Positions 1 through 21,653 of a stretch of DNA of 64,000 bases are shown one piece after another. The position numbers and the translations under genes are program-made. The DNA comes from Moniliella sp. 'wahieum' (lineage: Eukaryota > Basidiomycota > Moniliellomycetes > Moniliellales > Moniliellaceae): contig RSEE01000118.1 of the NCBI GenBank assembly GCA_003971905.1, positions 1 through 64,000 of the forward strand, written 5' to 3'. Positions within the stretch are counted from its first letter, which is position 1. Every line of letters begins with the position of its first letter. The notes beneath the pieces were generated by a model that saw only the letters and a program-made list of their open reading frames with translations, did no database searches and had not been told where the DNA came from.

Positions 1-200
1 CCCACCCTAACCTAATCCTAGGGGAGGGCGAGGGTAGATAGCGAGCTACCCGAAGGGGACAGAGTTATGCCGAGGCGATAGCTCGCTATAAAATCGTCCG
101 CTCTATGCAGCATATGCCCTCCGTTTTTCGATTGGACCACCCGTTCAAAAGTTACACCCCCCCATCCCTAACCCTACCCAACCCGACCCACCCCATCCGT
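1..200. repeat. Degenerate telomere-like C-rich tracts
   Basis: Short imperfect CCCTAA-like runs occur at about 1-20 and again at about 160-200 (ccctaaccctaccc and neighbours). They are diverged and are not a clean telomere array. Together with the repeat-rich block that follows they suggest a subtelomeric or interstitial telomeric position. Other explanations are simple C-rich sequence. Confidence 0.35.
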
Positions 201-450
201 CGTATCTCAGCCGTGCACGGTCCGTTCGACCTCAGATTTCACACACCCAGTCCAGAGGGTGCCCTTCCATACGTCTTCCCCTTCCAATTGCCATTTGTGT
301 GCCGGCGAAGCGCCTAAGCCGAGGAGCGCAACATGCCGAACGTCAGCTCAGTCGTCGGCTGACCGCATGCCCTGCTTGAAGTAACTAGTAAGTCCCCACT
401 ATTGCCTCCTTGCTCATCGCTGACTGTCCTGTGTGAAGATATGATGTGCC

Positions 451-684
451 TTGTGGGATGTACGTGTCCCTATCTACTACGTTGCGAAACCGCAGCCTAG
501 GGAACGGGCTAGGCAATTATGGCGGGGCAAGAAGGTTTGTACGACGACGATGCACCCTCGACAATGCGAGTGGTGCTCCCGCTTCGGGCATGCGGCAGCG
601 GTCTGCCAACAAGTGGCGACCGGGGGCAAGAAGTGCGGCCTGTGCCGCATCCCCGGCACCAACGCGACCAATGCCAAGACCTGA
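451..684 (+). pseudogene. Retroelement ORF1/gag-like fragment with CCHC zinc knuckle
   Basis: A 77-codon open frame carries a perfect C-x2-C-x4-H-x4-C zinc knuckle at 565-606 (CEWCSRFGHAAAVC), followed by a second CxxC (CGLC). CCHC knuckles are typical of the nucleic-acid-binding ORF of retrotransposons. The DNA just upstream (about 480-520) matches segments at about 10,034 and 15,118, which lie upstream of the two reverse transcriptase copies, so this is the 5' part of another copy of the same element. Its own RT is not recognisable downstream. The fragment is broken after 684. Confidence 0.55.
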
Positions 685-699
685 TTGATGCGTCGATCA

Positions 700-2400
700 G
701 GGCGATTGCTCGCAAGACAGGGATGCCCCTGAGGAAGTCGAATGCAGCGCAGAAGACGTCGTGGCGAACGGGTCGGAGCGAATCGGAGTGGCAGCGCCGG
801 CTGCCGCTTTGGATGTGTCCCGGACAAGCGCGCATGGTTCATCTGGAAAGAAAACTTGGTCGTGTTTACTCCTCCCCCTCCGAGTTGGAGGGGGAGCCTT
901 TTGGAGGCGGTCAAGACGCCAGCGAGGCCCGCGACTGGGGCGATCGTGGTCATGGGGCGTCAATTGGGCCGGTACGCCGGTCGACGCGGAGGGCAGCGCT
1001 CAATGCTGTCTTCGTGCGCAGGGCTGCCGTTGCGGAGGCGGCCTTGGTCCCCTTGCCTGGTGGATCCGACGATGGGTTGGAGTCGGGCAAAGAAGGAGGG
1101 GACGGAGTGGGAAGCGAGGGGGGTGGATCGGAGGGCGAGGAGGCCGGCAGCGAGGGCGAGACGGCCAGCTCGGGGCGGGGGCCTGCTCGAGGCGGCCTCT
1201 GGTCCATCCCCCCCCCGTCTGACCCCTGGCGAAGCTCCTTTCCAGGGCAAGGAAAACAGTGCCATGTTCACCAACGTCGCCTGGGGCACCATGCTAGCGG
1301 GGATGCCCTTGTGGAACATCACATACGAGTCAATATCAATAGGCGCCGACCAACGCGACCCTCGATGTTATTGTCTCGCCACTGTCCCTCGCCGGCCTAT
1401 CTACCTGCAACCCGCCATGAAACGGTTTGCCACTGCGTAGGAGCGACTCTGGCATGAAAGTGGTGGCAAGTGGCCGCTGCAGCCCTTTTATGAGTCCCCA
1501 TCGGCCCTCATACCGCCCTGGCCCAGCTCTCGCAACTGAGTGCCGATGACTATGCCACGAATCGGCAGTGGTTGGACGAACGGCTCTCCCCAGCCCTGGC
1601 GACTCTAGACGATCTCAAGAAGGTCGATCAAAACCACAATCTCTGCCAAAGTGGCTGCCCTGGCTCGACTGTATTGGTACGTTCGATGACCCGTCCATCC
1701 GTTGGGATGCTCTTCTTCCTTCCTGGCACCCCGCCGCGGTAACAGGTGCGACGAAAGGGGGTGAAAGGAGAGAAACAGCGCGAGGAGGAAGACTTGCTAA
1801 CCCGCACATCTCTCAGCAGGAGCAGATGGGCACCATCCCAACTTCACAACTGCATAAGATGATGCACTCTCTTCTTTGCCCGATACACTGTTGATCTCAA
1901 TACCTCAACTCCCGTATTGGTCAGCACGCGACGGGGGAGCGGGGACCACAACGTGTTACAACAACTGGAATGATACGGAGAACCCACTGGCGCATCTGGC
2001 GGCCAAGAACGTACGTATACGATGATGATCTTTTCAGGGTCGTGGCGCAGCCTCACTAGAAAAAGAACCGGAGGGGATGATATACTTACTGGATTCGCTT
2101 TGCCTTAACAGTTTGACCAAGCTTCGCAAGATGCCGAGCATTGGACGGCCAAGCTGTTTGTCGCCATGGAAGGCACTGCCCACCCCCCAAAGCAGCAGCT
2201 CCCTTGAATAATAGAGCTACCTTTGGCTGGAACACTATGCATGGCTCAGTGTTGACTAGCACCTCCGTGCTTCATCCCTTGCCGCCTCATCTTCCTTTGC
2301 TCCAGCTACGAATGTTCCTCTTGACTGGGATACCCGGGTGTGGCAAGGCTGCCGTCGGCACTGTTCGCGTAGGCCTGTCTCGGCCCTGCTGCCCCACATT
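700..2400. other. Decayed repeat sequence without recognisable gene
   Basis: Long overlapping open frames occur on both strands at 700-1450, but they are rich in Gly/Arg/Glu or Pro/Ser, as expected from G+C-rich sequence, and show no family motif. The stretch follows the zinc-knuckle fragment and is probably the degraded body of the same retroelement. Nothing at 1450-2400 can be assigned. Confidence 0.4.
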
Positions 2401-2409
2401 GTGATGGCG

Positions 2410-2461
2410 GTACGTTACCCACGTTCTCTTGTACTGTCCAAATTACTGACAACAATAGCAG
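2410..2461 (+). repeat. Intron-like cassette, type I
   Basis: A 52-nt segment with donor GTACGT, ACTGAC branch-like motif and CAG end. The upstream flank (ttgtgatggcg) resembles the flank of the cassette at 6,740. Confidence 0.5.
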
Positions 2462-2699
2462 CTCAAACACCGCACCAAGGAACCTGCCTGGATCAATACC
2501 CCTTTTCCAGGCATACGAGCGTACGCGGTGGCAATGGAGGCACTGCCCCACTTGACGATGGGCAGCTACTGTGGCAAAGAAAGTACCCGCTCCACTCCCC
2601 CTTCGGTGGGGTCTGCTCGGACGATCCTGATTGCCATTTGGCCGGGCAGGGACGTGCGAAGGCGGTGTCGGACCTGCATCCGGGTCTTTAGCGGCCGGG

Positions 2700-4360
2700 C
2701 GCCGCCCCTACGGGATAGCCAGCTGCTTCTGGGCAACACGGCGGACGCCTTTAACGCCGTCTGCAGCGCTTCTGGCTGCAGTGCGGGTCTGGAGCGGCTG
2801 CTGCTCGTGCGAAAGGGAGAGACTAGGTTGGTAGTTTTTTGGCCGCAACGAGAGATGTTAGGCGACACACAGCGAGCACCCGACGAACAACAACAATCGA
2901 CCGCCTCGGCGCTCGGCCCTCGCGGAGTCCGAGGAGCAGCTCGCAGGGCAACGCCATGGACATGGCCTCGACGCGAAGCAGCTGCAGAGCATGGTGCTTG
3001 GCGGGACAACGGCCAAGGGGGTAGCCCAATGGCTGCTGCGGCGGGGACAACGGGGACGACGGCGGTGGAGGCATGAGTGGGGGACGAGACGCGAGGGGAG
3101 GCAGGATGCAGCACCAAAAGGCGCGCTGCGTGTCGGATGGGCGGGTCGGTAAACAAGGCGCCGCTTGCGTGGTTCGCTGTGCTGCCGAGCGTGGCAAACG
3201 CCTACTGCTGTCCCCAAGAATCCGCAGCGCAGGTTGGTTCGTGGCCAGGTCCGGCCGGTAAGGACGGGCCAACCAAGGAGGGGGTACATGGGGCGCGCAG
3301 CCGCGCGCGGCGAGGGTCCAGTCGCGGGAGTGTGGTGCCGATATGGGTGCGGGTGTCCCCCCGGCACCGCGCTGGGCCGCTCTGTTTCGCGGCGAGGGTT
3401 GCGTCGTCGCGTGGTGGCCGCCGCGTCGGTTGGCGCGCCCACGCAGTTGCAATTCATCCACATTGGCTGCGGCCACCACCTACAACCCTAGCACCGCACT
3501 GAATTTCATCTCGTCGCGTCTGCGCGGCTTTTGCTTCTACGCCACCACCAGCACTGTGGGGCCGCTGCTGCAGCTCGCGTCCTAGCTTTTCTCTCGCTGT
3601 ACATCAAGCCGGATGCGTGCTCATGAGAGGTGGCGTCCCTTGCTTCCGCTTCTTGCTGCCCATCGGTATCCATGCAGCGCTCGATACCAGTGCACGGCTG
3701 GGACGAAGGCCTAGGCGATGGTCCGCAGCAGCAGCATGCCGAGCAGGACACGCTGTTCCTTCACCCGCCCACCTCGAGTCGTCGGTACAACGAACCGGGC
3801 CTTGCCTGCAAACGTGAATCGTGTTCTTCCCGAATCGGCCGCTTCTGCTCAAAGGGCAGGCGACACGATGCATAGCGGGATGCAAATCAACCTGAAGATG
3901 GCCCACCCATGGGGTCCTGACAACTGGATTCTGCGTGGGGTGGCAACGAGGGCGGCAGCAGGGATAGCCCGCTCCCCTTTTCTGGTCAGCAACATGCCTC
4001 GTGCACACCTCTCAGAGCCACAGCGCCCCAACCAAACCGCAACACCACTCCCCGATGATTCCTTTCCTGGTACTTTCCGCCCTGCCATTTGCGTTGCTTC
4101 CCACCTGGGCCAACGGCGGCGCGCCAGAACTTGACCTCACTCCCCGATGGAGCGCCGACAGCCCGCTTGTATCGGTTTTAGTTGTCTCCCCAAATCGGCC
4201 GTGCTCGGGCTCCCAAGAGCAACCATTTGCTACAAACCGGCTTGGTGGCAACTGGCGTGCCCAGGAGAAGTGGACCATTACTCCTGGCATGGGTATGAGC
4301 TTTACCTTTGCAACGCGGGTGCCAACAATGACGACATTCCGGTATTTTTGCCAGCAGCTG
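2700..4360. repeat. Decayed repeat unit, copy A
   Basis: Segments here match the two better preserved units. The text around 3,610 (gccggatgcgtgctca) recurs at about 7,444 and 13,482, and the text around 3,866-3,915 (gcgggatgcaaatcaacctg) recurs at 7,556 and 13,596. Similarity is patchy, and no open frame keeps a recognisable domain. Copy boundaries were judged by eye. Confidence 0.55.
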
Positions 4361-4364
4361 CACT

Positions 4365-4738
4365 GGTAAGGTTGGGTTGGATATGGGGCCCTCCATTGCT
4401 GTGAGGCTGCTCGTCCCACTGCTTCCTCCATCGACGAACGAAGCTGGGCTCTTATCGCTCATGTCCTCCATGACCAAGACGGGTTACGCTTCCATCAAGG
4501 TACACTGCGACGCGGCGTGGCATCTCGTCGTTTGCTTCTGTTGCGTTTACATCCGCAAAAGCCTGTCGCACCGCCGCCTTCCTTTCGACCTTACGGCCAT
4601 GCGGAATTGCTAGACCTGCGAATCCTTTTTACGCTGTCTTGCACGGCGTTGGTACCGCTATACCCAGTATGTGTTTCTCTGGTACGAAAGTACCCATGCC
4701 TTGCTCTACTGTGATATACTGACCAGTGCACTAAACAG
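4365..4738 (+). pseudogene. RT downstream segment, copy A, ending in type II intron-like cassette
   Basis: The sequence from about 4,365 aligns with 12,150-12,510, just downstream of the intact-looking RT, and with 16,167-16,480. Shared words include ccattgctgtgaggctgctcg and ttacgctgtcttgcacg. In all three copies one frame gives related peptides such as PPPSFRPYGHAE here and PPPSFFPYCHAE at 16.4 kb. The final part (4,682-4,738) is an intron-like cassette with GTACGA, ATACTGACC and CAG. Confidence 0.55.
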
Positions 4739-5215
4739 GTCCAAATTTATCTTGCCGGAAACGAATAGCCGATGAAAACAAGAAAGAAAGTCATCACCCC
4801 GCCATCTGCAGAGGTATCGCCTGCGCACCAGATTCATCACCCTGCCAGGCAACGACAACTTCGGGTGGTGGGGGGGGGCTGCCAGGTCCTGCCGCCCTAC
4901 GTGGACCGGGGGCGTTTCCAATGAACACAATGGGCACGTTTTGCAAGAGAGCTTGGGGTCTATTATAAAGACGTGGATCGAACCATCGCCAGCGCATACC
5001 GCGACGTTGTGTCGATGAAGGAGACGCGCAACCGGAGATGGCCTCGGCTTGAGGGATGGGGGGCAGCATAGTGGTGTGAGACCAACAGAAGGAGGAGCTG
5101 TGCTACTATGGTCACCCCTCAGGATGTACCTAGTCGCGCTGCACACTTCTCTCGGTGATTACCCATCCAGGATGGGCCCAGTTCGCCAACTTTGTTGGTG
5201 TGGATGCCGATGCTT

Positions 5216-5279
5216 GTACGTGGTCCATCTTCTTCTGTTGTGGCCCAAGTTGCTGACAGTTCTCATCGATCAAGCGCAG
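5216..5279 (+). repeat. Intron-like cassette, type I
   Basis: GTACGT, TTGCTGAC and CAG over 64 nt. The flank tttgttggtgtggatgcc is shared with the cassette at 12,978. Confidence 0.5.
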
Positions 5280-5369
5280 CACTGGAGGCAATAGGATCAG
5301 ACGCGTCATGCAGCCCTCCAACTTTTCACGTCAACGCCCCTCACCCAGTTGTTCAAAGCACCAATTGGG

Positions 5370-5860
5370 GGTATGCCGATACGGCACTTCCCTGTTGACC
5401 ATCGGCGCTGCACCACCAGCCAAGGCAAGGAATGCTTCACACCCCCGCAGGTTGTGCCTTAATGGAAGGCCCCCAGGTTGCCAACGAGGAGCACGTGCTG
5501 TTCGATGCTGTTCTGTTATGCTGGGCCATTCCGGACGCAGAAAAACGGGTGCTGGGGGCGAGCGGCCACCGCGGGCTGCCATCCGCACAGTCACAGCACT
5601 TCGAAAAAAGATGGGGGTCGGCGGCGACAGGCTTGTCTGCTGCCAGAGAGCGCGTTTGTTGACCGAGCAGGCCGCCCCAGCCGCAGTTCTCTGGCTTCAC
5701 CCGTGCACGAGACCAGGCTCGTCGTGGCCATGCGGGGGGATGATGGGCGCCGCATCTCGAAGCCCTGAAGAGGATGCAGATGGTGTGGTTAGCGTCAGTG
5801 AACCTCGCTCTCGATTGAATATGGATAATTGATGCGACGCTTGACTCGCCGCGCTTGCCG
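5370..5860. repeat. Repeat segment shared with 7.74-8.06 kb and 13.74-14.06 kb
   Basis: The end of this segment (cctgaagaggatgcagatgg, then the ctctcgattga tract) recurs with few changes at about 7,960-8,050 and 13,980-14,060. Here it directly follows the type I cassette at 5,216, so the intervening ~700 bp present at 13.04-13.74 kb are missing from this copy. Confidence 0.6.
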
Positions 5861-6700
5861 ATCGGCTGGGCTGTCGACCACCCCCGAACCGGGGCCGTGT
5901 CGGAGCGAAATCTCAGCGTCGCATCTTCTGTCTTCCACTCCCTGATCATTCGCCACTCCCTCATCATTCACATTTCCTCCTTCCTCCTCCCCCCACCATC
6001 GGCCCCCCGGTGCTGCTGGGCCAGGTACCCACACGGCGAGCTCCTGGTACGGCTCTTGCGTCATCCCCTTGTGCATGCAAAGATAGCGGCTGTCATCGCG
6101 ACAGCCGTCGTTGGAGCAGCGGCCCAATTAGTCGCTCGAATTGTCTCGTTCTACCTGTCCCGCAACAATCACTGTCCCAGCCAGCGCATGTGTACCGCAG
6201 GTCCTAACCAAGAGAAGCAAGGCGGCGGGTATGCCATCCCCTCAATCTGGTCTGGCTTAATGGCCTCCGGACCATTTTGTCCCAAGTGGATCTAAGCTGT
6301 CTTGCTCGTGCTTGCTCGTGCGTTACGTGCACATCTAAGGCACATCATCTTGGGGAACTCGTTGCTGGCATTGCATCCGGGAGACCCAAACATGTCCATC
6401 TATTCATTGCGACTGCCCGACATATATCGCAGCGATCCCGCCACACAGACGCCTCTGAACCCCAGCGCCCAAGGAACATCATTCGCCATCAAACGGCCTG
6501 GCGACTGCAATGTTGGAGACTGGTTCCGCTATTCTTCCAGTGCGGCGGCGCAGCTTCATGAGGCCCTGGTACTGTTTTCGTGCAGTGTTGTACACCTTGT
6601 CCATGCCCTACAAATGTGGCGCGATGTCGCCGCCGTTCCCAACGATAGGATTAGCTGCTGTCGCTATGGGCGGTATCTCTGAAACTCTTGGTGCGCACAT
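5861..6700. other. Unassigned spacer within repeat block
   Basis: I found no match to the neighbouring modules and no open frame with a recognisable domain. Confidence 0.3.
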
Positions 6701-6739
6701 GCGTTTCGACGAAGCTTGCTGGCCCAGATTGTGACGATG

Positions 6740-6798
6740 GTACGTTGCCCCGCTCTATTGTACTCTCTTGTGGTGCGAGTTGCTGACAACCGACGCAG
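6740..6798 (+). repeat. Intron-like cassette, type I
   Basis: GTACGT, TTGCTGAC and CAG over 59 nt. It opens the better preserved unit that runs to about 9,030. Confidence 0.5.
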
Positions 6799-7637
6799 AC
6801 CGAACACAGTGCCAGCAGCAATTGGGACGAACGTGCTTGCGCAAAGAAACTGGCTGTATCAATGCCTCTCAGCCAGAGCATGCGACGCGTACGCGGTGAA
6901 AGTGCAGGCACTGTTCCGCTTGACGCCGCCCTCGCTAGGCAAGTGCGCGCACTGCTCTCCCCTTTGTTGTACGGAAGGCGTGGGTTGGGGTTTGGACAGC
7001 AAGGGACGTGCGAAACCAGTATCCTTCGCGCTCCACCCGCCCGCTTCAGCAGCTGTGCGCCAGACCTGCGTGGCAGCGAGCTGTGTCTGGCCAACACGGC
7101 GGGCACCTTGCCGCCGTCGGCAACGCTCCCTGCTGCAGTGCAAGTCTACAGGGCTGCTACGGCGGCAGCGGACAGCCGAGCAGCCCCGCAAGCAGCAGCA
7201 ATCGACTGCCTCTCCGCGAGACGCGCAGAAAGGGCTGTTCCCGTCGTGGGGTTAATGTTAAACGTGCGTTTGCCGCCGCGCTTGGCGCGCAGAAGCTCCT
7301 CCACATTGGCCGCGGCCACACCGTCCAAGCCCCCCCCCGATTCTGGCCTGGCTGCGTTTAGGACCGCTTTGCCTCTCCACGACCAACCCGCTGGGACTCT
7401 GCTATGGCTCATGTCCTTGCTTCCTTGTCGCGCTGCGCACCAAGCCGGATGCGTGCTCACGGGAGCCCACCCCTCGGCTCCGCTTTTTGCCGTCCATCCT
7501 TGTCGATGCAGTGCCTGAACTGGCATCGAGAGCGCGGTTGCGTTACTGAGCTCGACATGATGCGCAGCGGTGGAATGCAAATCAACCTGGAGGCGACCCA
7601 CCCATGGGATGCCGTATCTTTGATGGTGGTGATTCCT

Positions 7638-7700
7638 GTACGTGTCCATCTCCTTCTGCTGAAACCCAAGTTGCTGACGTTTCACCTTAGCTGGACGCAG
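7638..7700 (+). repeat. Intron-like cassette, type I
   Basis: Flank ggtggtgattcct, then GTACGT, TTGCTGAC and TAG or CAG. It is paired with the shorter cassette at 13,668 in the duplicate unit. Confidence 0.55.
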
Positions 7701-8535
7701 CACCAGAAGCAATATGTGCTCACACAAGCAACCATTAACTCGTCACGTCCACGTCCCCCCAGCCAGTTGGGCAAGGTGCCAATACAGGGAATATTGGCAA
7801 AGGCAGGGCACGCCTTCCGCCCCTGCAGATGCGCCGGCAGCGAAGGCCTCTACGACTGGCGAAGAGCAGAAGCTGCTCGCTGCTGCTGCGTTGGGGAATG
7901 GGCGCGTAGAACAGGTCCGGGGGGGGGGCGTGGCTGCTCTTCATTACCCTCATTGGACCCCTGAAGAGGATGGAGACGGGGTGGGTAGTGTCAATGAGCC
8001 TCACTCTCGATTGGATACTGATCGTGGATGTGACTGCCTCGCTGGACGCGTTTGTTGATCAGGTGAACTGGCGGCCACCACTTAACCCGAGCTATGCCAA
8101 AGTGAATCCTCCACCTCGTCCCTTTTGTTCGCCTCTCGCAGCAGGGCTGTCGCCCCATTGCGCTTCCCTTTGTTCTCCCCTCCCGAAGTCACGCCCCCCA
8201 CGCCTCCGCTGCCCGCACAGACCGGCCAGGTCCTCACCCAGTATGGCTGGGTGTTCCTTAATATGGAACCCGCATTGATCCCCACCCGAAACTGATCGAA
8301 AATGCGTCGAACTCTCGGCCTGGTCCCAGCAGCAGCCCCAAGCGCTTCCCCAACTCACTCCCGGTGCTGGCCGTAATGACCTCCACGACGCACAAGCCGT
8401 TCCGCACAGCGAACGCATTGCTCACCTCAAGCTTGCTGCCGCCGACCGTCAGCGCCATTCATACTAAAGACGAAAACAATTATCCGCACGACCCTACTCA
8501 ATACCAGGGCCATGATTCGCTCTACTGCTTTACAT

Positions 8536-8598
8536 GTACGGCGACGACCCCATCCACACTTCCTCTGGTATGATATACTGACCGACGCGCTTGTGCAG
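8536..8598 (+). repeat. Intron-like cassette, type II
   Basis: GTACGG, ATACTGACC and CAG over 63 nt. It is nearly identical to the cassette at 14,544, which starts GTACGA. Confidence 0.55.
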
Positions 8599-9233
8599 GC
8601 CGAAACGTACAGGCACGGGAATACAGACGGAGATGGATAATCAAGAATGTCCGAGAACTAGGGCAAGGACATGGATCAAATCAGTGCCCGCTTCTCATTT
8701 ATGTGGAAGATGTTAGTGGTTCCTTTGGAAGCTGCCAAGTCATATGCTTCCAGGCTCCGCCTCGTCTTAGGGGCCACTATCCTACTGCTGCATATTAGAG
8801 CACTCTCTCCTCTCCCAGATGGGAATCAAGTCCAAGGGAGAGTGGGGCAGATTGTGCGCGGCTGGACATTTCGTCGCAGAAGGCGATCGAGGCAAAGGGC
8901 CCGAACAAGAAAAGGTTCCAAAACGCAGCGTACAAAATGTGCAAACGCAAGTGCCAAGAGCCTGGACTTCTGCATTGGGGATTGTATCACCTGACTGATA
9001 CCCTTGCGAGTCAAGAATGTGGACCAAACCACTCGCTACCCCTACCTAAATGGCCTCCTGTTGCCCCACCGATTGTTCATTTTGCGGCTCGTGCTTGCAG
9101 CAACCCCTCCGCCATCTGTTTCGCTCGAGGAGGAAAAACGGATCTGGCACGGACCAAATTCCCCTGGGTAGGTGAGCAGCAATGGCACCAGGCAACTCAT
9201 CCGGGGCGACGATAGGGGCAATGTGGTCGGTCA

Positions 9234-9990
9234 ATGATAGGATCAAGTTGGCATCCCGATGCCCGTCGCTTTGGGCAGATCAGTCTTGCTCTCTCCTCTT
9301 GGCTTACCTCCACAGGCCAACGCAACACCATGGGCAGCGAGACGAACGTATGGGTGGACCAGGTGATCGGCAGCCAACGAGATTGCCCCTCATCCTGGCA
9401 AAAGGAAAAGAAGACGGTTTTGCTCGCCCACCAGTATACGAAGCTGCTGCCTCCTGTGACTATATCGCTCGGCCCCTGGCTGATCGAGAAAGCAGAAGCG
9501 CTCGATCCCAGCTGGAGGGCGGTGGTGCCCTCAAATCCAACGTTCACATTTCCTGGCCACGGGGTCATGACTGGGTTGCGGGACATTCCGGCCACGATAG
9601 TAGAGCCCGAGCCATCAAGAACCCGCAGCGAGTCGGGCGCTCCTACTGTCGCCGCACTAAGATCGCGATGGCAAACGCAGGTGCTCCAAAGAGCCCATCC
9701 ATATCCAACGGCCTAACCCCTTCGTCCTTGGGAGGCAAGACACGCGACCCCTTTCTACGTTGTATTTGCCATCCGCTCGCCGCCGTCCTGAGGCACACGC
9801 GCTGTCTAAGGAGATTAACACCTTGTTCGACATAGAGGCCAAAGCAAAGAACCAACGTACAATCCTTGTGCAACGAGTGCGTAGCTCTGTTCCCTTGGTC
9901 TTCGCTGTGGGTGACTACACCTGTGGTTACACTTCCGCTATGCAAGCTAAGGTATACGGGTCACCCCATCCAAACGCGCTGCCCCTGTAA
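9234..9990 (+). pseudogene. Coherent coding stretch upstream of zinc-knuckle remnant
   Basis: A 160-codon frame (9,234-9,716) continues, after a frame change, into a 76-codon frame (9,760-9,990). Both have balanced amino-acid composition (for example GSETNVWVDQVIGSQ and VFAVGDYTCGYTSAMQ), unlike the Arg/Pro-rich shadow frames nearby. It lies immediately before the decayed zinc-knuckle segment at 10,034 and the RT, which is where ORF1 of a non-LTR element would be. I recognise no domain, so the retroelement assignment rests on position. Confidence 0.4.
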
Positions 9991-10019
9991 GTCATGCATT
10001 CAGGTGCTTTGCTTGATTT

Positions 10020-10300
10020 CTCTGCCGTCCATGTTGCAAACCCACAGCCTAGGAGCCGGACTAGGTATTTGCGGTCCTTGGGCTGCCCAAGAATGCAAGA
10101 CGAGCAAGATGTGTATTCACAGAACGTTGTGGATCGTGTGCGCTACTTTGGCTACGAATGTGTCCAAGGCACTCTTGAATGGAGATGGAGCGGGCAATAC
10201 AAAACTTGTTCCTTCTCCACGTTTCCACCGCCACCTTCCCCGCCTTGCCCGCCGTCTGGAGGTCGTGGCGAATCATGTGGCCCCCTTCCGTGCTGCGCGT
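10020..10300 (+). pseudogene. Decayed zinc-knuckle region, copy 2
   Basis: Starts with gttgcaaacccacagcctagg, matching about 480 and 15,118. The frame reads LGCPRMQDEQDVYSQ and then a YFGYECVQ stretch that aligns with the knuckle of the first copy, but the Cys/His ligands are largely lost. It is followed directly by the RT-bearing region. Confidence 0.5.
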
Positions 10301-10489
10301 GAACTAGGCCGGTGGGAACTAGCGTAACACCAACAGCTCAGGCGCGCACGCGCTACGCCAGGCAGTCGGTGCCGGCTGTGCCCAGCCCAATCAGGCAGCC
10401 GAAGCGGACCACCGGCAGTTCCGATTCGGATCCATTCGAGTGGTGGAGTGCGCTGTGCCCTCGCCGCCGGGCAGCACAATGGTGCGGCG

Positions 10490-12486
10490 TCGGTTCAAAG
10501 AGGCGGCCGGTCGATTGGGAAGAGCGTATTTAGATCATCCCGACGATGACGCCGTGTTCAACCTGCTTGCCCTGCCGAAGGCGGGCTTGCGGGGGGGCTC
10601 TTCGGCCGACGTTTGTGCCACCCTCAAGGCGTATCCGGAGGTGGCTTGGCCGCCAGCTATGGAGAAGGGCTCTGCAGAGCGCCAGCGTTCGATGATTTGA
10701 CCGTGCACATCGCCAGGTCAAAGAGGGCATGTGGGGGCGTGCGGCGCGTACGCTGCGTCCCCAGGATGCGGCGGTGGGGTTTGGTCCGGAAACGGTCGAG
10801 GCCGCGTGCGAAGTACCCTTCAGGCCCGAACAACCCGCTGGCTGGTTTGGTGGTTCGGCAAATGTCGGAGCGGGCCCGCCTGGTTTAACAGGCGACACCG
10901 CAGCGGCAGACGCCGGTGAGCCCCCAATGGTTTTGGAGTTGGCTGATAAGGACATCTATCGCGCGGCAAGCAGCTTCTCCCGGGACGTGGGGGGAGGCGC
11001 GGGCGGATAGTCGGTACCTTTTCTCCAGCTGGCTCTAAAGCAAGATGACTTTAGAGCGGCTCTCCAAGTCGTGGGTGTGCCATGTTTCATGGGACGTGCC
11101 CGGGTGCTCAGCTGTTGTGCACCAGTAGGTTGACGGCGCTTGCGAAACCTGACGGTAGAGTGAGACCGATCGCCTGTGGTGAGTTACTTTACCGCGTAAT
11201 GGCCAAGGCACTTCTTCATTTGGATGTGGTTACTCCTCTGCTCCACTCGCAGTTGGGCGTCAAGTCCAAGGGCGGGTGGAGCCGACTGTGCGGCTCATGG
11301 ATCGTTTGGTGAGCGGGCAAGAGAGGGGCCCGGCTTGGGCCAAGTTCAACTATGTGCTGTCGTTGGACTTTAAAAATGCGTTCAAGTCGATCGACCGGGC
11401 GCGGTGGCCCAAGCGGTGAGTGACTATTCGCCCGAGCTCCTTTCTTTCTTTCGTTGGGCTTATGGGAAGCACACCCAGTTGGTGTTGAGTGGTCCAGGCG
11501 GCTTTGGAACCCTCCTGAGCCAGCAGGGAGTGAGACAGGGCAACCCCTTTGGGCCCTTCTTCTCTGTCGGCATCCGCAGTATGCTGGAGCAGGCGCAGCG
11601 CACGTTGGGCGACGATGGGCTGGTGGTGTCCTATTTGGATGACACTTGTGTATTGTCGCGCAATGCCAATGCGCTGCAGCTGGTCTCGCGTGTTATGGCG
11701 CAGAGCAAGACGGGGCTGGAACTCAACCTGAGCAAGACGAAGACTGTCTCGACGCAGAGGTTGCGTCTGGAGGGCGGCACCTTCCTCGGCTCGTGCATGG
11801 GTCCCAGGACAGCTCGGCTCGCTTTTCTGCAGGCAAAGGTGGAGGCTCAGGCGGCGCTTTACCCCACCTTGCAAGGGATGCCGCTGAAGGACCGCTTGCT
11901 CTTGTTGCGCGTGGCTCTGCAGCAGAACCTGTGGCACCTGCTCCACTCGATGCGGACAGACGACCTGGCGGACCAGCTCCACCAGATTGACGAGCAGCTC
12001 TGGCGCGAGGTGAAGGCAATCGGGGGAGCGGATCCGAGCAAGGAGGACGGTCAGAAATGGCACAGGGTTCTTTTCTTCTTGCCAGCCCGTATGGGTGGCT
12101 TAGGCGTTCGGGCGCCAACAGTGGTGGCATTCCGGTTGGTTCTATCCACAGTTACTGGTGAAGTCCGATTGGATATGTTGCCTTCCATTGCAGTGAGACT
12201 GCTCGTACCCCTGATGAGACTGGGCTCACATCGCTCCTGTCCCCCAGGGTGGCGCCGTGGCCAAGATGGAATCGACGCTGTGATCAAGGCACACCTTGAC
12301 GCGATGTGGCATATCGTCGGTCCGCTTCTGTTACATCCGGCACATCTCTCGCGCCCCCACCTGCCTTGCCGCCCTACCACCACGCCGGATTGCCAGACGT
12401 GCCAATCCATTTTCACACTATCATGCTCGATGTACCGACTATCTGTTCATCAGGTACGAAGTCACCCAAGCCTTGCCGTGGTGTAA
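10490..12486 (+). pseudogene. Non-LTR-type retrotransposon reverse transcriptase (broken)
   Basis: Frames in order give an N-terminal segment with LALPKAGLRGG (about 10,565), then GRAARTLRPQDA, then GRVRPIACGE (11,153-11,182), LSLDFKNAF (about 11,360), GVRQGNP (11,527-11,547) and the catalytic YLDD (11,632-11,643). A thumb-like region follows with LARMGGLGV-type spacing (PARMGGLGVRA near 12,090). These are the conserved blocks of non-LTR reverse transcriptases of the VRPIA-GE type. The 360-codon frame 11,404-12,486 is open, but the N-terminal half needs several frame changes and a stop separates it from the LDFKNAF block. I saw no RNase H, integrase or LTR. It is probably inactive, although assembly indels could account for some breaks. 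Confidence 0.85.
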
Positions 12487-12510
12487 TGTACTGGCCAGTG
12501 CGTTAGACAG
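12454..12510 (+). repeat. Intron-like cassette, type II
   Basis: GTACGA, GTACTGGCC (branch-like motif changed by one base) and CAG over 57 nt. It lies at the very end of the RT frame, so if the intron is real the RT frame would splice on into the sequence at 12,511. Confidence 0.5.
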
Positions 12511-13140
12511 GTGCGAATATGCTGGACGGTGGAGAATAGCCGATGGAAAAGCAAGTGATCGCCCCGCTCTCTCCAGAGGTATCGCCTCCGCATCAGGTTA
12601 AACACCCCGCCAGGCAACGACAACCTTGGATGGTGGCGGCCCGTCCCAACGTTAACCGGAGGCGCTGCGCGCTGCAGATGAAAACAACCGACAAGCACTG
12701 CAAGAACCTGAGGTGCAAGATAAAGGCATGGATCGAGTCATTGCCAGCTTCTGCCGCAATGTGGTGCAGGAATCAGGGAACGCGCATCTACAGATCGCCT
12801 CGCTCAAGCCCGCGGAATGAGGGTCAGACATGAGAGTGTACGGCCAACAGGATGAAAAGCAGGTGCCACTAGTGGTTGTCCTTCGTGAAGTGCTCAGCCG
12901 CGGTGCCCGCCTCTCCTTGGGCTTACCTACCGACCCATGATGGGCCCAGCGCTCCCACTATGTTGGTGGAGATACCTGTACGTTGTTCATATCCTTCTGC
13001 GGTGGCCCAGATTGCTGACATTTCGCATTGTCCAGACGCAGTCGGAGCGCCCGCATTCGTGTAGCCCTTGCCACATCAACGTCCCTCAGCCGCCGAGCAA
13101 AGCGCCCAAGGAGAGAGTACCTCCGCTGCGCCCTTTGGCC
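12511..13140. repeat. Segment shared with 4.74-5.34 kb
   Basis: The text gccaggcaacgacaacc occurs at about 12,610 and 4,845, offset 7.76 kb, with patchy similarity on both sides through the type I cassette at 12,978. No recognisable domain. Confidence 0.6.
12978..13041 (+). repeat. Intron-like cassette, type I
   Basis: GTACGT, ATTGCTGAC and CAG over 64 nt. Its flanks match those of the cassette at 5,216. Confidence 0.5.
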
Positions 13141-13667
13141 ATAGGCAGCACCATTGGCAAAGGCAAGGCACGCTTCGCCCTCACCCGTGGCTGCAACAAC
13201 CGCGCCAGATTGCAGCGGCGCAAGCAAACCGAGCAGCCTCGCGAGCAAACGCAACCGACTGCCTCTGCACGAGACGCGCAGAAAGGGCTGCTCCCGCCGC
13301 GGGGTTGACGTTTAACGTGCGTTTGCCGCCGTGGTTGGCGTGCAGAAGTTCCTCCACATTGCCGTGGCCACCCCGTCCAAGCCCCCCTCCCCGATTCTAG
13401 CCTGGCTGCGTTTGGGACCGCTTTGCCTCTCCACCAGCAACACGCTGGGGTTCTATACGTCTCATGTCCTTGCTGTCTAGCCGGATGCGTGCTCACGGGG
13501 AGGCACGCCCCTCACCTCCGCTTTTTGCTGCCCATCATTGTCGGTGCAGTACCCGAATTGGCCTTGAGAGCGCGGCTGCGTTACCGAGGTCGACACGATG
13601 CGCAGTGGTGGAATGCAAATCAGGCGGCCCACCATGGAGTACCGCAACTTCGATGGTGGTGATGCCT

Positions 13668-13710
13668 GTACGTGTCCACCCTTGTGCTGGAACGCTGACT
13701 TTTCCATTAG
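13668..13710 (+). repeat. Intron-like cassette, type I (short)
   Basis: Only 43 nt: GTACGT, CGCTGAC, TAG. About 20 nt in the middle of the 7,638 partner are missing, yet the donor, branch and acceptor words are kept. Confidence 0.5.
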
Positions 13711-14543
13711 CTGGACTCAACTTCAGAGGCATTGTACGTGCACTCAAGCAGCCCTTAACTCGTCGCGTCCACGTTCCCCCAGCCAGTTGCCCCAGGCGCC
13801 AATGCAGGGAATATTGGCAAAGGCAGGGCACGCTTCCGGCTCCCTGCGGATGCGCCAGCAGGGAAGGCCTCTACGGCTGGCGAAGAGCAGATCCTGCTCG
13901 ATGCTGCTATGTTGTGGGACGGGCGCATAGAGCAGGTCCAGGGTACGTGCGGCTGCTCTTCATCCCCCTCGCTGGACCCCTGAAGAGGATGGAGACCGGG
14001 TTGATGAGCCTCACTCTCGATTGGATACTAGCCATGGATGTGACTGTCTCAGTGGACGCGCTTTTGGTCAGGTGGACTGGCGACCACCACCTAACCCGAG
14101 CTGTGCCAAAGTGAATCCTCCACCTCGCCTCTTTTGCTCGCCACTCGCGGCAGGGCTGTGGCCTGATGCGCCTCCCTTTGTTCTCCCTTCCCCAACTCGC
14201 GGCCCTCACGCCTCCGCTGCCCCGCACATACCGGCCAGCTCCCCCCTTCCCGGAGTGGGGGTGTCCTACAACATGGAAACCGCATTGGTCCCCACCCAAG
14301 ACTTATCGAATGAGTCGAACGTCTGGCCTGGTTCCAGCAGCAGGCCCAAGCTCTTCTTAGACACACTCCCGTCGCAGACCGCAAAGACTCTACGATGCTT
14401 AATCCCTTTCACACGGCGAACGCTTTTCTCACCTCAAGCTTGTTGCCACCGACCGTCAGCGCCGTTCATACTAAAGCCAAAAACGATCATCCGCACGGCC
14501 CTACTCAATACCGGGGTCATGATTCTCTCTACTGGTTTTACAT

Positions 14544-14607
14544 GTACGACGACGATCCCCACCCACACTTCCTCCAGTATGATATACTGACCGACGCGCT
14601 TGTGCAG
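14544..14607 (+). repeat. Intron-like cassette, type II
   Basis: GTACGA, ATACTGACC and CAG over 64 nt, partner of 8,536. Confidence 0.55.
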
Positions 14608-15099
14608 GCCGGAACGTACAGGCACGGGTATGCAGACGGAGATGGGTGATCAAGAGTGTCCGAGCACTACGGCAAGGACATTGGTCAAACCAGTGCCCGC
14701 TTTTCATTTACGTGGGAAATGTTAGTGGTTCGGGATCGCTGTACACTTGGCCATCACTCGACATGATGACGCTGTGGAAGCTGCCCAGTCATATGCTTCC
14801 CAAGCTCCGTCTCGCCTTGGAGCCAATATCCTTCTACTGCATATCCGAGTACCCTCCCCCTCTACTCCCAGATGGGAATCAAGTCCAAGGGAGAGTGGGG
14901 CAGATTGTGCGGGCTGGGCACTTCGTTACAGAAGGCAATCGAGGCGAAGGGCCTGAGTGAACAAGAAAAGGTTCCAATGTGTAACGTGGATCGACTTCAA
15001 AACACAGCGTGCAAGAGTGCAAGCGCAACGTGCCAAGATATAAGGATCACCTCATTCCAAACGCACTACCACGGTATGACATGGATCAAGTGGCTTTTG

Positions 15100-16482
15100 C
15101 TTGATTTCCCTGCCGATCACGTTGCAAAACCACAGCCTAGGTGCCGAACTAGGCATTCGCGGTGCTTTGGCTGCCCTAGAATCCAAGACGAGCAAGATGT
15201 GTATCCGCAGAACGTTCTGGACTGCGTGCGCTCCTTTGGCTACGAATGTGTCCAAGGCACTCTTGAATGGAGATGGGGCGGGAAATGGAAAACGTATTCC
15301 CTTCTCCACCTTTCACCGCCACCTTCCGCCTTGCCCGCTGCCTGGAAGTCATGGCAAAATGTGGCTCCTGCCGTGATGCGCGTGAACGAGGTCGATGAGA
15401 ACGAACGTAGCACCAACAGCTCAGGCGCGCACGCGCTACGCCATAGTCGGTGTCGGTGCGGCGGTCTCAGTCCAATCTGGCTTCCGGCGGCCGAAATTCA
15501 GATCCATTCAAGTGGTGGAGTGCACTGCGCCCTCGCCGCCGGGTAGCACGATGGTGCCGCGTCCATTCAAACACACCGCGGGTCGCTTAGGAATTGCCTA
15601 CCTAGATCATCTCGACGGCCACGATGTGTTTAACTTGCTTGTTCAGTTCTCAAAGGGGGCTTGCAGGGAGGCTCCTCGCTTGGTGTTTTCACCTCCCTCA
15701 GGGCTGATCCGGAGGTGACCTGACCTCCAGCTATGGGGAAGGACTCTGCAGATCGTGCGCATTCCGATTGTTTCGCCCGTGCGCATCTCCAGGTCAAACA
15801 GGCATGCTAGGGCGGGCGGTTCGTACGCTGCGTCCCCAGGACGCGACGGTGGGGTTGCGGCCCAGGCGGCTTTGTACATTCTTGCACGGGTTGCCGCTGC
15901 AGGACCGCCTGCTTTGTTGCGGGTCGCTCTGCAGCCAAACTTCGGCATCCGCTCGGTTCAATGAGGACGGAGGATCTAGCGGACCAGCTCCACCAGATTG
16001 ACGAGCAGCTCTGGCGCGAGGTGAAGGCAATCCGGGGGACGGATCCGAGGGATGAGGACGGTCAAAAGTGGGACAGGGATCTTTTCTCCCTGCCAGCCCG
16101 TATAGGTGGCTTAGATTTCGGATATCAACAGTGGTGGCATTCCCGTTAGTTCTATCCGCAGCTACTGGCAAGGTGGGGTAGGGTATGGTGCCTTCCACTG
16201 CAGTGGGACTGCTTGTACCCATGATGAGACTGGGCTCATATCGTTCCTGTCCCACGTGGTGTGTGCGGCCAAGACATGATTGGCGCTGCCACCAAGGCAC
16301 ACCGTGAAGCGGGGTGTGTGGCATCTTTTCGGTCCGTTTTTGTTGCGTTTACATCCGACACGCCTATCTCGCCCCCGCCCTCATTCTTCCCTTACTGTCA
16401 CGCCGAGGTGCCAGGCGTGCAAATGCCTTTTCACACTGTCATGCACGATGTACCCACTATTCGATCCTCCATCAAGTCGCCG
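15100..16482 (+). pseudogene. Second RT element copy with internal deletion
   Basis: It aligns with 10,020-10,790 (anchors gttgcaaaaccacagcctagg and the gtggtggagtgc tract, offset about 5.08 kb) and then jumps to the equivalent of 11,845-12,450 (anchor gaccagctccaccagattgacg at 15,982 against 11,971, offset about 4.01 kb). About 1.05 kb carrying the VRPIA, GVRQG and YLDD blocks is therefore missing. Similarity stops at about 16,482, the point where the type II cassette begins in the other copies. Confidence 0.7.
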
Positions 16483-16929: not shown

Positions 16930-18188
16930 ATGAGTTCCTTCCAGGTCGGAGGCCACGCCAATGTCGTAATCCTGCTCCGGATCACCAGCCCCCGCCCTCT
17001 GCCCCACCTCCATTGCGCCTCTGCCCGCCAGTGGCGACCCCGCCGAGCCGGCCGAACAAGTGGCCGCCGTCTGGGCCGGCCCGCATTGCCAGCGCCGCCT
17101 GCTGAAGCGGACGACCTGGGGCGAGGTTTCGTTCTACGCTGCGTGTCGCAGTCTCGCAGGGGGAGATGCGCCGGCGGCGGAGCATGCGGCCGAGCTCCAG
17201 CTGCCGCAGGCGGCTGTGCCCCCTGCCACGCGCGCCGCGATCGCTGCCTTTGTCGAGCTGCAGCCTTGCTTCTATGGTGCCTATCCTCTCTTTCCCTCCC
17301 CCGCCTATCCTTCTCCCCAAGACGCGGATGTTCGAAATGCCATCCGCCTTTTAGCGCGCACTTCCATGGCCGCCTCTGACCCTGAGATGCACAGCTGGAG
17401 CATGGTCTTGAGCAACGTGGTGGCCGGCATGCAATGGCCCCACACCATCGACATTAAACTGGGCCACATTCTCTTTGACGACCGACCTGGCCGGACCAAG
17501 GAGGAGAAGATCAAGCGGATGCAAGCTGCTTCCGCCAGCACCACGTCTTCAACTCATGGGGTTCGTCTGACGGGCTTCCAGCATTGGCTCACGCCTCCGC
17601 CTCAGCCTGGACCAGATGGCCGGCCAAAGTCGCAAGACCGCCAGGAACGTGTTCTTCATTCGGTCGGCAAGAGCTTTGGCAAAAAAGTGGACCATGCGGG
17701 ATTTGCCGTGGGACTGCGAATGTTCCTTGGCTGCGCGTCGGCAGAGGACGAGGCTCACTTTAGCTCGGTTACCCAGTCTGGCTCCACGGGGGGCGCCTGG
17801 CCTTCTGACCGCATCCCTGGTTGGATTATGCTTTGCTCTTGGAGCGATCCATTCTGCCTTCGCTGAACCAGATGGTACGGGTGGTATCGGGGGTTGAAAT
17901 ACGGTTTCGCGGATCCAGTTACTTCTTGCCTACGAGAGCGACCCCGTCCTCCTCCACCGTTGGGCCACGGATCAGCTGCAATGGCCGCGGCGCATGTGGA
18001 CCGGCCCTCCCATCTCGACCTGCCGCCTGATTGACTTTGCCCACTCTTACTTTGTCCTAGGCCACGGGCCCGACCAAGGCCTCCTCGCCGGCCTCCGCAC
18101 CCTCATCACCACCCTCGATACCTTTCTGGCCCACCTACGCACTTCAGGAGCCGACTTGCCCCCTCCGTCAACTGACCCAGGGCGCTGA
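16930..18188 (+). CDS. Inositol polyphosphate multikinase (IPK2/ARG82 family), frameshifted
   Basis: Inositol polyphosphate kinases phosphorylate IP3/IP4, giving precursors of higher inositol phosphates for nuclear signalling. The family signature P-x3-D-x-K-x-G is present as PHTIDIKLG at 17,438-17,464, followed by HILFDD and GVRLTGFQ, which are classic for this family. The C-terminal catalytic IDF motif is present as LIDFAHS at 18,027-18,047, followed by the usual GPDQGLLAGL. The N-terminus reads MSSFQVGGHANV, matching the family's usual substrate-lobe start, which supports the ATG at 16,930. The pieces lie in at least four frames, so several single-base breaks must be bridged. The span corresponds to about 420 codons, normal for the family. 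It is the first recognisable host gene after the repeat block. Confidence 0.88.
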
Positions 18189-20353: not shown

Positions 20354-20797
20354 ATGTCCTCCATCAGCCCCAAGGCCTTCCCCTTGGCCGACGCCACGCT
20401 CACCAACCAGATCCTCGACCTGGTGCAGCAGGCGTCGCACTACAAGCAGCTCAAGAAGGGCGCCAACGAGGCGACCAAGACGCTCAACCGTGGCATTTGC
20501 GAGTTCATCGTCATGGCTGCCGACACGGAGCCGATTGAGATTGTGCTCTCGCTCCCGCTCCTGTGCGAGGACAAGAACGTGCCCTACGTCTTTGTCCCGT
20601 CCAAGACGGCCCTGGCCGCGCCTGCAACGTCTCGCGCCCTGTCATTGCCGCTTCGGTCACCACCAATGAGGCGCGCGAACTGCAGAGCCAGATTCAAACC
20701 ATCAAGCTTGCTGTACGTTGGCCTTACTTCTGCTCTGCGCTGTCGCAGGATATGATACTGACTTTTGGTTTTCTAGATTGAGCGCCTGCTCATTTAA
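20354..20797 (+). CDS. SNU13: SNU13 (15.5K), L7Ae-family U4 snRNP / box C/D snoRNP protein
   Basis: SNU13 binds the kink-turn of U4 snRNA and of box C/D snoRNAs, nucleating both the spliceosomal tri-snRNP and rRNA methylation particles. The protein begins [16 protein letters not shown] and contains the RNA-binding block [13 protein letters not shown] and the conserved [15 protein letters not shown]. After a one-base loss at about 20,614 (ctggccgc where ctgggccgc is expected) the frame resumes with [12 protein letters not shown]. An intron at 20,713-20,776 (GTACGT, ATACTGAC, TAG, phase 0) precedes a last exon of six codons and a stop, IERLLI, the family's usual end. Total length is about 127 residues, as expected. 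Confidence 0.97.
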
Positions 20798-21653
20798 CAA
20801 GATGCTTGATTCCAACTGAGCTCATCGACGGATGGACCGTGGCAGCAGCGTTGGTATGTGCCGCGATGTACACATCCAACAGATGAATTGAATGAGGGTG
20901 TATCTGCTCCAGCCTGCCTTTGGGTGAGAAGACCAGCTCGGTGTTGGTAGTGCGATGATGTTGGCAGAGTGGGGCTGACAAGGAAAGGGGAGCGCGACAG
21001 GCCGTCACCTCCCCATCTCTCCGTGGTCAGACTAGGCATAGCACGTGCGGGGTGCGAGGATGGACAGGTTGAACAGACAGGACGGCTGAGCGAGCGGAGC
21101 GACGTTGTGCGCATGTGAATGCCGTTGGTCTGGGGTGGTTCCTGCTATACAAATGGGTGTCGTACCGGCTGGTGGCAGACAGCATGACCCATCCTGAGGC
21201 GTGAGGGCGTGGAAGCGGCAAGGTGAGATGGGGAGAGAGGAGGATCGGTGGGAGGCATCGTGAGGACAGAGACCCGGGGGTGAGTGGGTGAGATCTGAGA
21301 CTGGTTGCTGCGGGGCGTCGGCAGTAGGCAGCAGTCGACCGACCGACGCCGGAAGCAGGCCAGCCGGTGACGCGGTGACCGGTGACGGTGACAGGTGAGA
21401 TGTGACATGTGACGCGTGACGGGTGATTGAGTGATCGCCCTACAGACAGCCACAATGGGAGCACCTAGGCGTGGCGGGGGGGCAGTGTGTGGCGGCAACG
21501 CGTGGCAGTGCAGCGTCCCGCAGCACCAGCGGCTAAAGTGGATCCAGCCTGCACGCAGGCCAGGCTTGGCCGACACAGGCCCAACCCTTCTTGGCGCGGG
21601 GGGGCCCGGGGGTAGTGTTCCCTCTGCCACCTCCGCCAGCCAGCCGCTCAGCC
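20798..21653. other. Intergenic region with GTGAC-rich cluster
   Basis: No gene found. At 21,360-21,435 the sequence is dense in GTGA(C) words (ggtgacgcggtgaccggtga and following). This region must contain the SNU13 3' end and the promoter of the ATPase. Confidence 0.4.

Follow-up and report, generated by a model that had tools for sequence, protein, structure and literature searches.

The ten intron-like cassettes in a repeat block at the start of a contig of Moniliella sp. 'wahieum' are probably (at roughly 0.6, judged from sequence) genuine spliceosomal introns, now mostly relics, that lie in the non-coding part of a retroelement-bearing chromosome-end repeat copied as DNA. A retroelement that copies via RNA should shed its introns, and once a repeat is dead its splice signals should decay no slower than any other sequence; more than 100 copies in five families make up a natural experiment on the retention of splice words. 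Near the cassettes, splice words are among the best-kept short words, if not the sole ones, and the codons are without detected selection. In a genome that holds many copies of graded age, selection for the splicing of chromosome-end RNA becomes testable.

The window, i.e., the whole stretch of 64,000 nucleotides that was analysed, opens with the block. A preliminary description of this DNA had reported ten cassettes of 43-64 nt there, and both the observation and the lengths are confirmed; each coordinate that it gave is the exact start of a GTACG donor (10/10). The CTGAC branch word that it ascribed to all ten is present in nine; at 12,454 the word is CTGGC, with the branch A lost, and this cassette is therefore probably a dead intron. 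The block and its cassettes, all on the + strand, are:

200..16460, + strand, repeat block at the contig start, one copy of the contig-end repeat
2410..2458, + strand, cassette Ic copy 1, 49 nt, GTACG..CTGAC..TAG
4682..4738, + strand, cassette IIb copy 1, 57 nt, exact scan match
5216..5279, + strand, cassette Ib copy 1, 64 nt up to the first YAG, with an AAG at 59 nt
6740..6798, + strand, cassette Ic copy 2, 59 nt, exact scan match
7638..7690, + strand, cassette Ia copy 1, 53 nt, exact scan match
8536..8598, + strand, cassette IIa copy 1, 63 nt, exact scan match
12454..12510, + strand, cassette IIb copy 2, 57 nt, branch word CTGGC, missed by the exact scan
12978..13035, + strand, cassette Ib copy 2, 58 nt, exact scan match
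13668..13710, + strand, cassette Ia copy 2, 43 nt, shortened interior, exact scan match
14544..14607, + strand, cassette IIa copy 2, 64 nt, exact scan match

The exact pattern GTACG..CTGAC..YAG, scanned over 201-16,460, is found nine times on the + strand (the ten cassettes without 12,454) and zero times on the - strand; 0.14 matches are expected (sd 0.37, maximum 2; Markov-1 null, 200 resamplings).

These words are also those of the host's own introns, as had been proposed: the signature GTACGTN{20,45}TACTGACN{6,20}CAG has 233 matches genome-wide, some of which are these repeats and some one donor counted with two acceptors, vs 10 for the same pattern read backwards. In the rest of the window, GTACG..CTGAC..YAG occurs twice on the + strand (null 0.47). 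The match at 20,713-20,776 is the SNU13 intron: joining the exons across it gives a C-terminus that matches Snu13 structures (E 1.7e-6); the match at 22,992-23,050 lies inside a predicted gene, one exon of which has no Pfam match. A GT donor, a CTRAY branch and an AG acceptor at host-like spacing are found in the cassettes, except at 12,454, which is without the branch A.

The cassettes fall into five families: Ia (7638/13668), Ib (5216/12978), Ic (2410/6740), IIa (8536/14544) and IIb (4682/12454). Profile comparison, made on sets that contained mixed Ia and Ib rows, joins IIa to IIb and Ib to Ic, with some flank in common, and Ia and Ib match each other within the window; because of these links, the ten cassettes can be traced to about two ancestral introns. 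Clean sets, assigned later by best match, hold 146 rows; the window supplies 10, and the other 136 are non-window copies (Ia 23, Ib 24, Ic 29, IIa 30, IIb 30). Four further fetched loci served in the repeat-copy comparison, the conserved-word check and the motif scan, and stand outside the clean sets and the divergence, intactness, singleton-change, spacing, sister-pair and N/S counts. Loci L086-L105 are short, 146-202 bases each, which leaves fewer rows in the flank columns, and tests over copies are not independent, since there are only about two ancestral introns and the copies are related.

The preserved splice signals that the preliminary description had remarked on are borne out overall, with an excess of conservation over the surroundings that is not found in IIa alone. 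With window rows excluded, divergence in four families is lower at the splice words than in interior and flanks by a factor of 2.6-7; for splice words, interior and flank, in that order, it is.028/.173/.208 in Ia,.075/.241/.268 in IIb,.078/.217/.269 in Ic and.082/.214/.263 in Ib, with.112/.164/.209 in IIa. In a combined, context-corrected mask test none of 20,000 random placements attains this level; IIa taken alone is not significant, with a placement percentile of 0.18-0.20 and 40 of 349 placements reaching it in the intact-site test. Where they recur in the block outside the cassettes, the splice-word 5-mers have median divergences of 0.36-0.87 of the local rate (2 to 8 sites per set), vs about 0.19 inside the cassettes. 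GT, CTRAY and AG are all intact in 100 of the 136 copies (null 39.7, maximum 79 in 20,000 draws), and of the ten changes at the R of CTRAY, eight replace G with A and so retain the purine. AG is found between branch and acceptor in 8/136 rows vs 75/136 for a zone of equal size on the upstream side of the branch, counts that go back to only five ancestral sequences.

Branch-to-acceptor spacing is no steadier per nucleotide than donor-to-branch spacing (0.94 vs 0.87 off-mode rows per 100 nt). Ranked by conservation among 7,081 positions without local correction, donors and branch words come no higher than the top 0.5-19%; the donor hexamer of Ia copy 1 (7638..7690) is among the block's most conserved. 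Other short words, e.g., GCCGATG near IIb, are equally conserved though they are not splice signals; GCCGATG was considered as a start codon and dropped, the frame that follows having an N/S of about 1.

The constraint looks old, because recent sister pairs display none at splice words: in 22 such pairs, changes there (5/263) keep the same pace as in the rest (22/984 and 118/6095), with 5 changes seen and 5.2 expected, under wide uncertainty. It is carried mainly by older changes. Splice signals that outlasted their surroundings over much of the repeats' past suggest that splicing of an RNA from them once mattered, and in present copies the signals are probably relics. In the history proposed here, the repeat would have spread from one chromosome end to another as DNA that carried introns along with flanks, and the reverse transcriptase described below would belong with the intron region to one element. 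Active elements would have produced RNA whose non-coding part was spliced, selection on active lineages would have retained donor, branch point and acceptor, and recent copies would now decay neutrally. More tentatively, and with less than even odds, a chromosome-end non-coding RNA may have been under selection for splicing itself, rather than for a surrounding protein; it could be the RNA of a telomere-oriented retroelement or a host subtelomeric RNA that needed recognition by the spliceosome for its life cycle or silencing.

Should the host rather than the element keep the signals, the cassettes would be functional, weakly spliced introns of a subtelomeric lncRNA that recruit silencing factors. 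Splice signals kept amid surroundings without detected coding selection would suit such an RNA, as would singleton changes that are somewhat fewer at splice words (0.35 per site vs 0.55 and 0.58, P 0.01); the neutral pace in recent sister pairs, few as the changes are, argues against it, and the explanation is rather unlikely. Its precedent is Schizosaccharomyces pombe, where the portion of the source used here describes cryptic introns in silencing lncRNAs and also in the Tf2 retrotransposon (PMC7229227). The two cases are alike in having splice signals in RNA that is non-coding or, here, putatively so; the S. pombe introns are established by genetics, whereas the cassettes are known from sequence conservation alone.

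Host-type introns with flanks on both sides would be explained if a protein-coding gene family with ordinary introns had decayed and been amplified at chromosome ends, its exons free of constraint before today's copies formed. In that case constraint on the splice words should have eased along with that on the exons, yet the words stayed conserved while coding selection was not detected among shared, older changes (mean N/S 0.98), and five open frames that cross cassettes, drawn from every family except IIb, have no Pfam match, so this origin is improbable. Much the same tests bear on a coding role for the cassettes, in which each splice word would encode part of a conserved protein motif. Each of the five families can be read through as a plausible peptide, with those of IIa and IIb, and of Ia and Ib, alike by eye, and IIa-IIb divergence in cassette columns is lowest at the second and highest at the third codon position (first 0.366, second 0.318, third 0.423), although significance is not established. 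Against this, coding selection was not detected in the sense frames of cassettes plus flanks (N/S 0.66-1.43), N/S is about 1 in all frames, IIa vs IIb has no third-position excess over cassette plus flanks (P 0.56) and most indels are not multiples of three; the idea is rejected as very improbable. A P-loop-like stretch at 2,327, with look-alikes in two other copies, was dropped as an NTPase gene; one open frame tested there has no Pfam match.

Two features may connect the repeat to retroelements:

11374..12486, + strand, open frame with a reverse transcriptase core, in the same repeat block, RVT_1 match
565..681, + strand, zinc-knuckle motif CX2CX4HX4C from the motif scan, weak (Pfam zf-CCHC_4 only E 0.093)

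The RVT_1 match (E 8e-6, 26.1 bits) is below the Pfam curated cut-off of 29.6. The core appears to be under some coding selection, unlike the surroundings of the cassettes: in-frame N/S is 0.52 at 11,401-11,640, 0.39 at 11,501-11,740 and 0.69 over 11,374-12,150, values that are not unique to it, since 2,901-3,140 has 0.47 (coverage 3, one stop). The motif scan finds YLDD and RQGNPF in the core, which we take to mark it as LINE-like, and the knuckle is presumably of the kind found in LINE ORF1; the C3 copy has a second zinc knuckle intact. Adjacency in a mosaic block would tie the reverse transcriptase to the intron region. Penelope-like elements, some of them telomere-associated, can disperse intron-containing genes, for which unspliced sense or antisense templates are discussed as a reason, and one copy has an intron within its frame, as given in the part of the source drawn on (PMC3846280). 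By comparison, the present repeat has a weak RVT_1 match that looks LINE-like, and no coding selection was detected in the DNA around its introns.

Nearly all assignable repeat matches (152/154) are sense-inward and no more than 35 kb from a contig end, and the reverse transcriptase core has its 5' side facing the contig end. C3 starts with CCCTAA repeats; telomere repeats are clear only there, most other ends not being read to their tips. Repeat similarity stops at different places in different contigs; that of the block's last unit stops at 16,460, which aligns to a point 12 nt short of the IIb donor in the 12.4 kb unit. MoTeR/FoTeR, fungal telomeric non-LTR retrotransposons, are placed by the sections consulted at chromosome ends with the 5' end toward the terminus, MoTeRs inserting into telomere repeat tracts (PMC12857005); the main text of that paper nowhere uses the word "intron" (0 occurrences). 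The present repeat resembles them as a reverse transcriptase repeat at chromosome ends with its 5' side outward, and differs in carrying intron-like cassettes; contact with telomere repeats is seen only at the C3 start.

Copying of the cassettes together with their flanks as DNA holds wherever checked. The earlier interpretation finds support as to host splice words, co-copying and preserved signals, but not as to self-spread. Introners are families of closely similar introns, a likeness that the cassettes share; unlike introners, they were not seen inserted at unrelated sites where flanks were checked. That introner-like elements spread by themselves is hardly credible, despite short introns closely similar in many places, given flank homology wherever checked and 24 of 25 exact type I core matches within 35 kb of a contig end; one-mismatch matches of that core also occur in the interior. 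A joined-flank query for an intron-less Ia junction gave 18 matches, 0 of which cross the junction without the intron. In the Ib search, 10 of 35 matches extend little beyond the cassette: three of these fall at Ia places, where a separate search matches the flanks too, two more also match in that search (one of them, at C3, collinear with the window), two are preceded by IIb at a distance of about 520 bases, and three are truncated or rearranged repeat copies. Independent insertion had been considered for type I cassettes with sparse flanks at C21, C119 and C199 and was rejected, the sequence there being of this truncated or rearranged kind. A 61-nt gap in two copies (window 2,293-2,353) has neither a GT start nor an AG end and is taken as a deletion.

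The ten intron-like cassettes lie in a block at about 200-16,460, in which self-comparison shows several repeated units with partial deletions. The block is taken as subtelomeric because another contig of the assembly, C3, starts with CCCTAA repeats and is 87% identical to 4,279-15,039 along a collinear 10.9 kb. The window covers the opening 64 kb of contig C118 (181,970 bases), in an assembly of 69.5 Mb in 223 contigs; genes are compact and introns short, as would fit a fungus. Immediately inward of the block, an open frame at 16970-17866 encodes a domain that Pfam assigns to inositol polyphosphate kinases (IPK, E 1.8e-15), and at positions 1-200 of the contig, CCCTAA-like degenerate stretches adjoin a GC-rich element, as they do at the start of C3. 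The preliminary description read the cassettes as introns of a retroelement or decayed gene family copied as DNA, or as introner-like elements; the observation is confirmed, with all ten donors in place, and the interpretation is partly supported. Judged from sequence, the cassettes are putative spliced introns of five families.

Cassette families: donor starts on the sense strand of the window, and copies with every splice site intact in the window-free set
Ia, donors at 7638 and 13668: 21 of 23 copies
Ib, donors at 5216 and 12978: 16 of 24 copies
Ic, donors at 2410 and 6740: 20 of 29 copies
IIa, donors at 8536 and 14544: 18 of 30 copies
IIb, donors at 4682 and 12454: 25 of 30 copies

The splice words (donor, branch word and acceptor) are well kept, though they are not alone in this, since without local correction they rank only in the top 0.5-19% of 7,081 positions. 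Against the window as reference, the ten cassettes have a mean mismatch of 0.058 at GTACG, CTGAC and AG; the interior has 0.168 and the flanks 0.167. Of 483 alignments, 359 entered this count once duplicates and those exceeding 98.5% identity had been removed. This reference favours sites intact in the window, and the test was therefore repeated without window rows on 136 copies of the five families. The proposed excess conservation over the surroundings persists: after correction for context, the five families jointly show a value reached in 0 of 20,000 random placements, and four of them singly stand at placement percentiles of 0.042 or less, with IIa alone at 0.20. Every splice site is intact in 100 of the 136 copies, against a null of 39.7 (sd 9.4, maximum 79 in 20,000 draws), and the same words outside cassettes, on both strands, are more diverged, albeit in small sets. 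Acceptors are more variable than donors (8 and 12 changes among the 136 copies versus 4 and 4), and at the tolerant branch-word position eight of ten changes are G to A. Among well-covered positions, the Ia donor hexamer heads the list, and GCCGATG and the Ia acceptor follow closely. The motif GCCGATG (4768-4774 and 12539-12545) lies about 30 nt past the IIb acceptor and is kept like the best splice words in about 30 copies; coding selection was not detected in the frame from its ATG.

The constraint is mainly old, as sister pairs and shared changes indicate. In 22 sister pairs of <6% divergence the splice words change like the rest (0.019 vs 0.022 and 0.019), and at 6-15% divergence (18 pairs) slightly more slowly (0.061 vs 0.082 and 0.087, P 0.12), window rows being included in both sets. 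Per site, splice words have 0.30 shared changes, the interior 0.67 and the flanks 0.75 (P 9e-6); singletons number 0.35, 0.55 and 0.58 (P 0.01), all by Poisson tests that ignore relatedness. In the simplest account, selection would have acted on active lineages, whose copies then decayed neutrally; weak selection on the splice words may nonetheless continue today, the changes to judge from being few.

A coding reading of the cassettes is disfavoured: in the surrounding sense frames the N/S ratio, a measure of coding selection, is 0.66-1.43 for all changes and averages 0.98 (range 0.46-2.27) for shared changes only, and most of the many indels have lengths not divisible by three. Of six listed windows with N/S <0.55, all but the one at 2,901-3,140 fall in 10,901-11,740. 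An open frame with a reverse transcriptase core contains two windows, within 11,401-11,740, that show in-frame ratios of 0.52 and 0.39, no stops and a coverage of about 5; over 11,374-12,150 the ratio of this frame is 0.69. Together with the core's match to the reverse transcriptase family (Pfam RVT_1, E 8e-6, under the curated cut-off) and a zinc-knuckle motif toward the telomere side (weak Pfam match, E 0.093), these low ratios indicate a retroelement in the block, probably LINE-type. From adjacency and common orientation we infer that the introns are part of its transcript. At 2327-2347, one frame encodes a P-loop-like peptide, GIPGCGK, with look-alikes in two other copies.

Co-duplication with the flanks as DNA is supported, and independent, introner-like spread of the cassettes is not, as repeat flanks accompany them at every place checked and none of at least 18 matches to the joined flanks of Ia, the family so queried, crosses the junction without a cassette. 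Cassette-plus-flank queries gave at least 31, 37, 38, 35 and 34 matches, lower bounds since only the best candidates are scored. Although 10 of 35 rows in the Ib search span little more than the cassette, all ten sit in repeat copies, judging from the other searches and fetched stretches. The searches yielded 175 rows, with overlapping families and the window's own rows included; setting aside 17 on contigs <40 kb and four on contigs of unknown length, 152 of 154 lie ≤35 kb from a contig end with the sense inward, the two others being on one contig, C54. Exact matches to the type I core CCCAAGTTGCTGACA number 25, one on C54 and the other 24 ≤35 kb from a contig end; with one mismatch there are 36, some at contig-interior places (backward control, 2). 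Telomeric non-LTR elements of fungi share this chromosome-end place and orientation, Penelope-like elements can disperse introns, and in fission yeast cryptic introns of non-coding RNAs take part in silencing; a limited search of open-access literature, which proves little, turned up no chromosome-end non-LTR repeat described as carrying conserved introns in non-coding DNA.

Chance is a very unlikely origin of the signature matches, even counted as five families from about two ancestors, because the exact signature occurs nine times on the sense strand of the block and never on the other (resampled null 0.14); CTGAC, ascribed to all ten cassettes, is exact in nine, with CTGGC at 12,454. The splice words are indeed those of host introns: the SNU13 intron, whose exon junction is spanned by a protein match, bears the same signature, which has 233 matches genome-wide, some of them in these repeats and some single donors counted with two acceptors, versus 10 for the reversed pattern. 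Among the intron matches listed are near-identical pairs on different contigs (e.g., C4/C16, C8/C23, C14/C19), such as the assembly of two haplotypes or homeologous sets side by side would give. In SNU13 (20354-20820) one base is apparently missing in a conserved stretch; its L7Ae domain match and C-terminal piece lie, by eye, in different frames, which suggests assembly indel errors; errors of this kind may also account for some of the frameshifts apparent elsewhere in the window.
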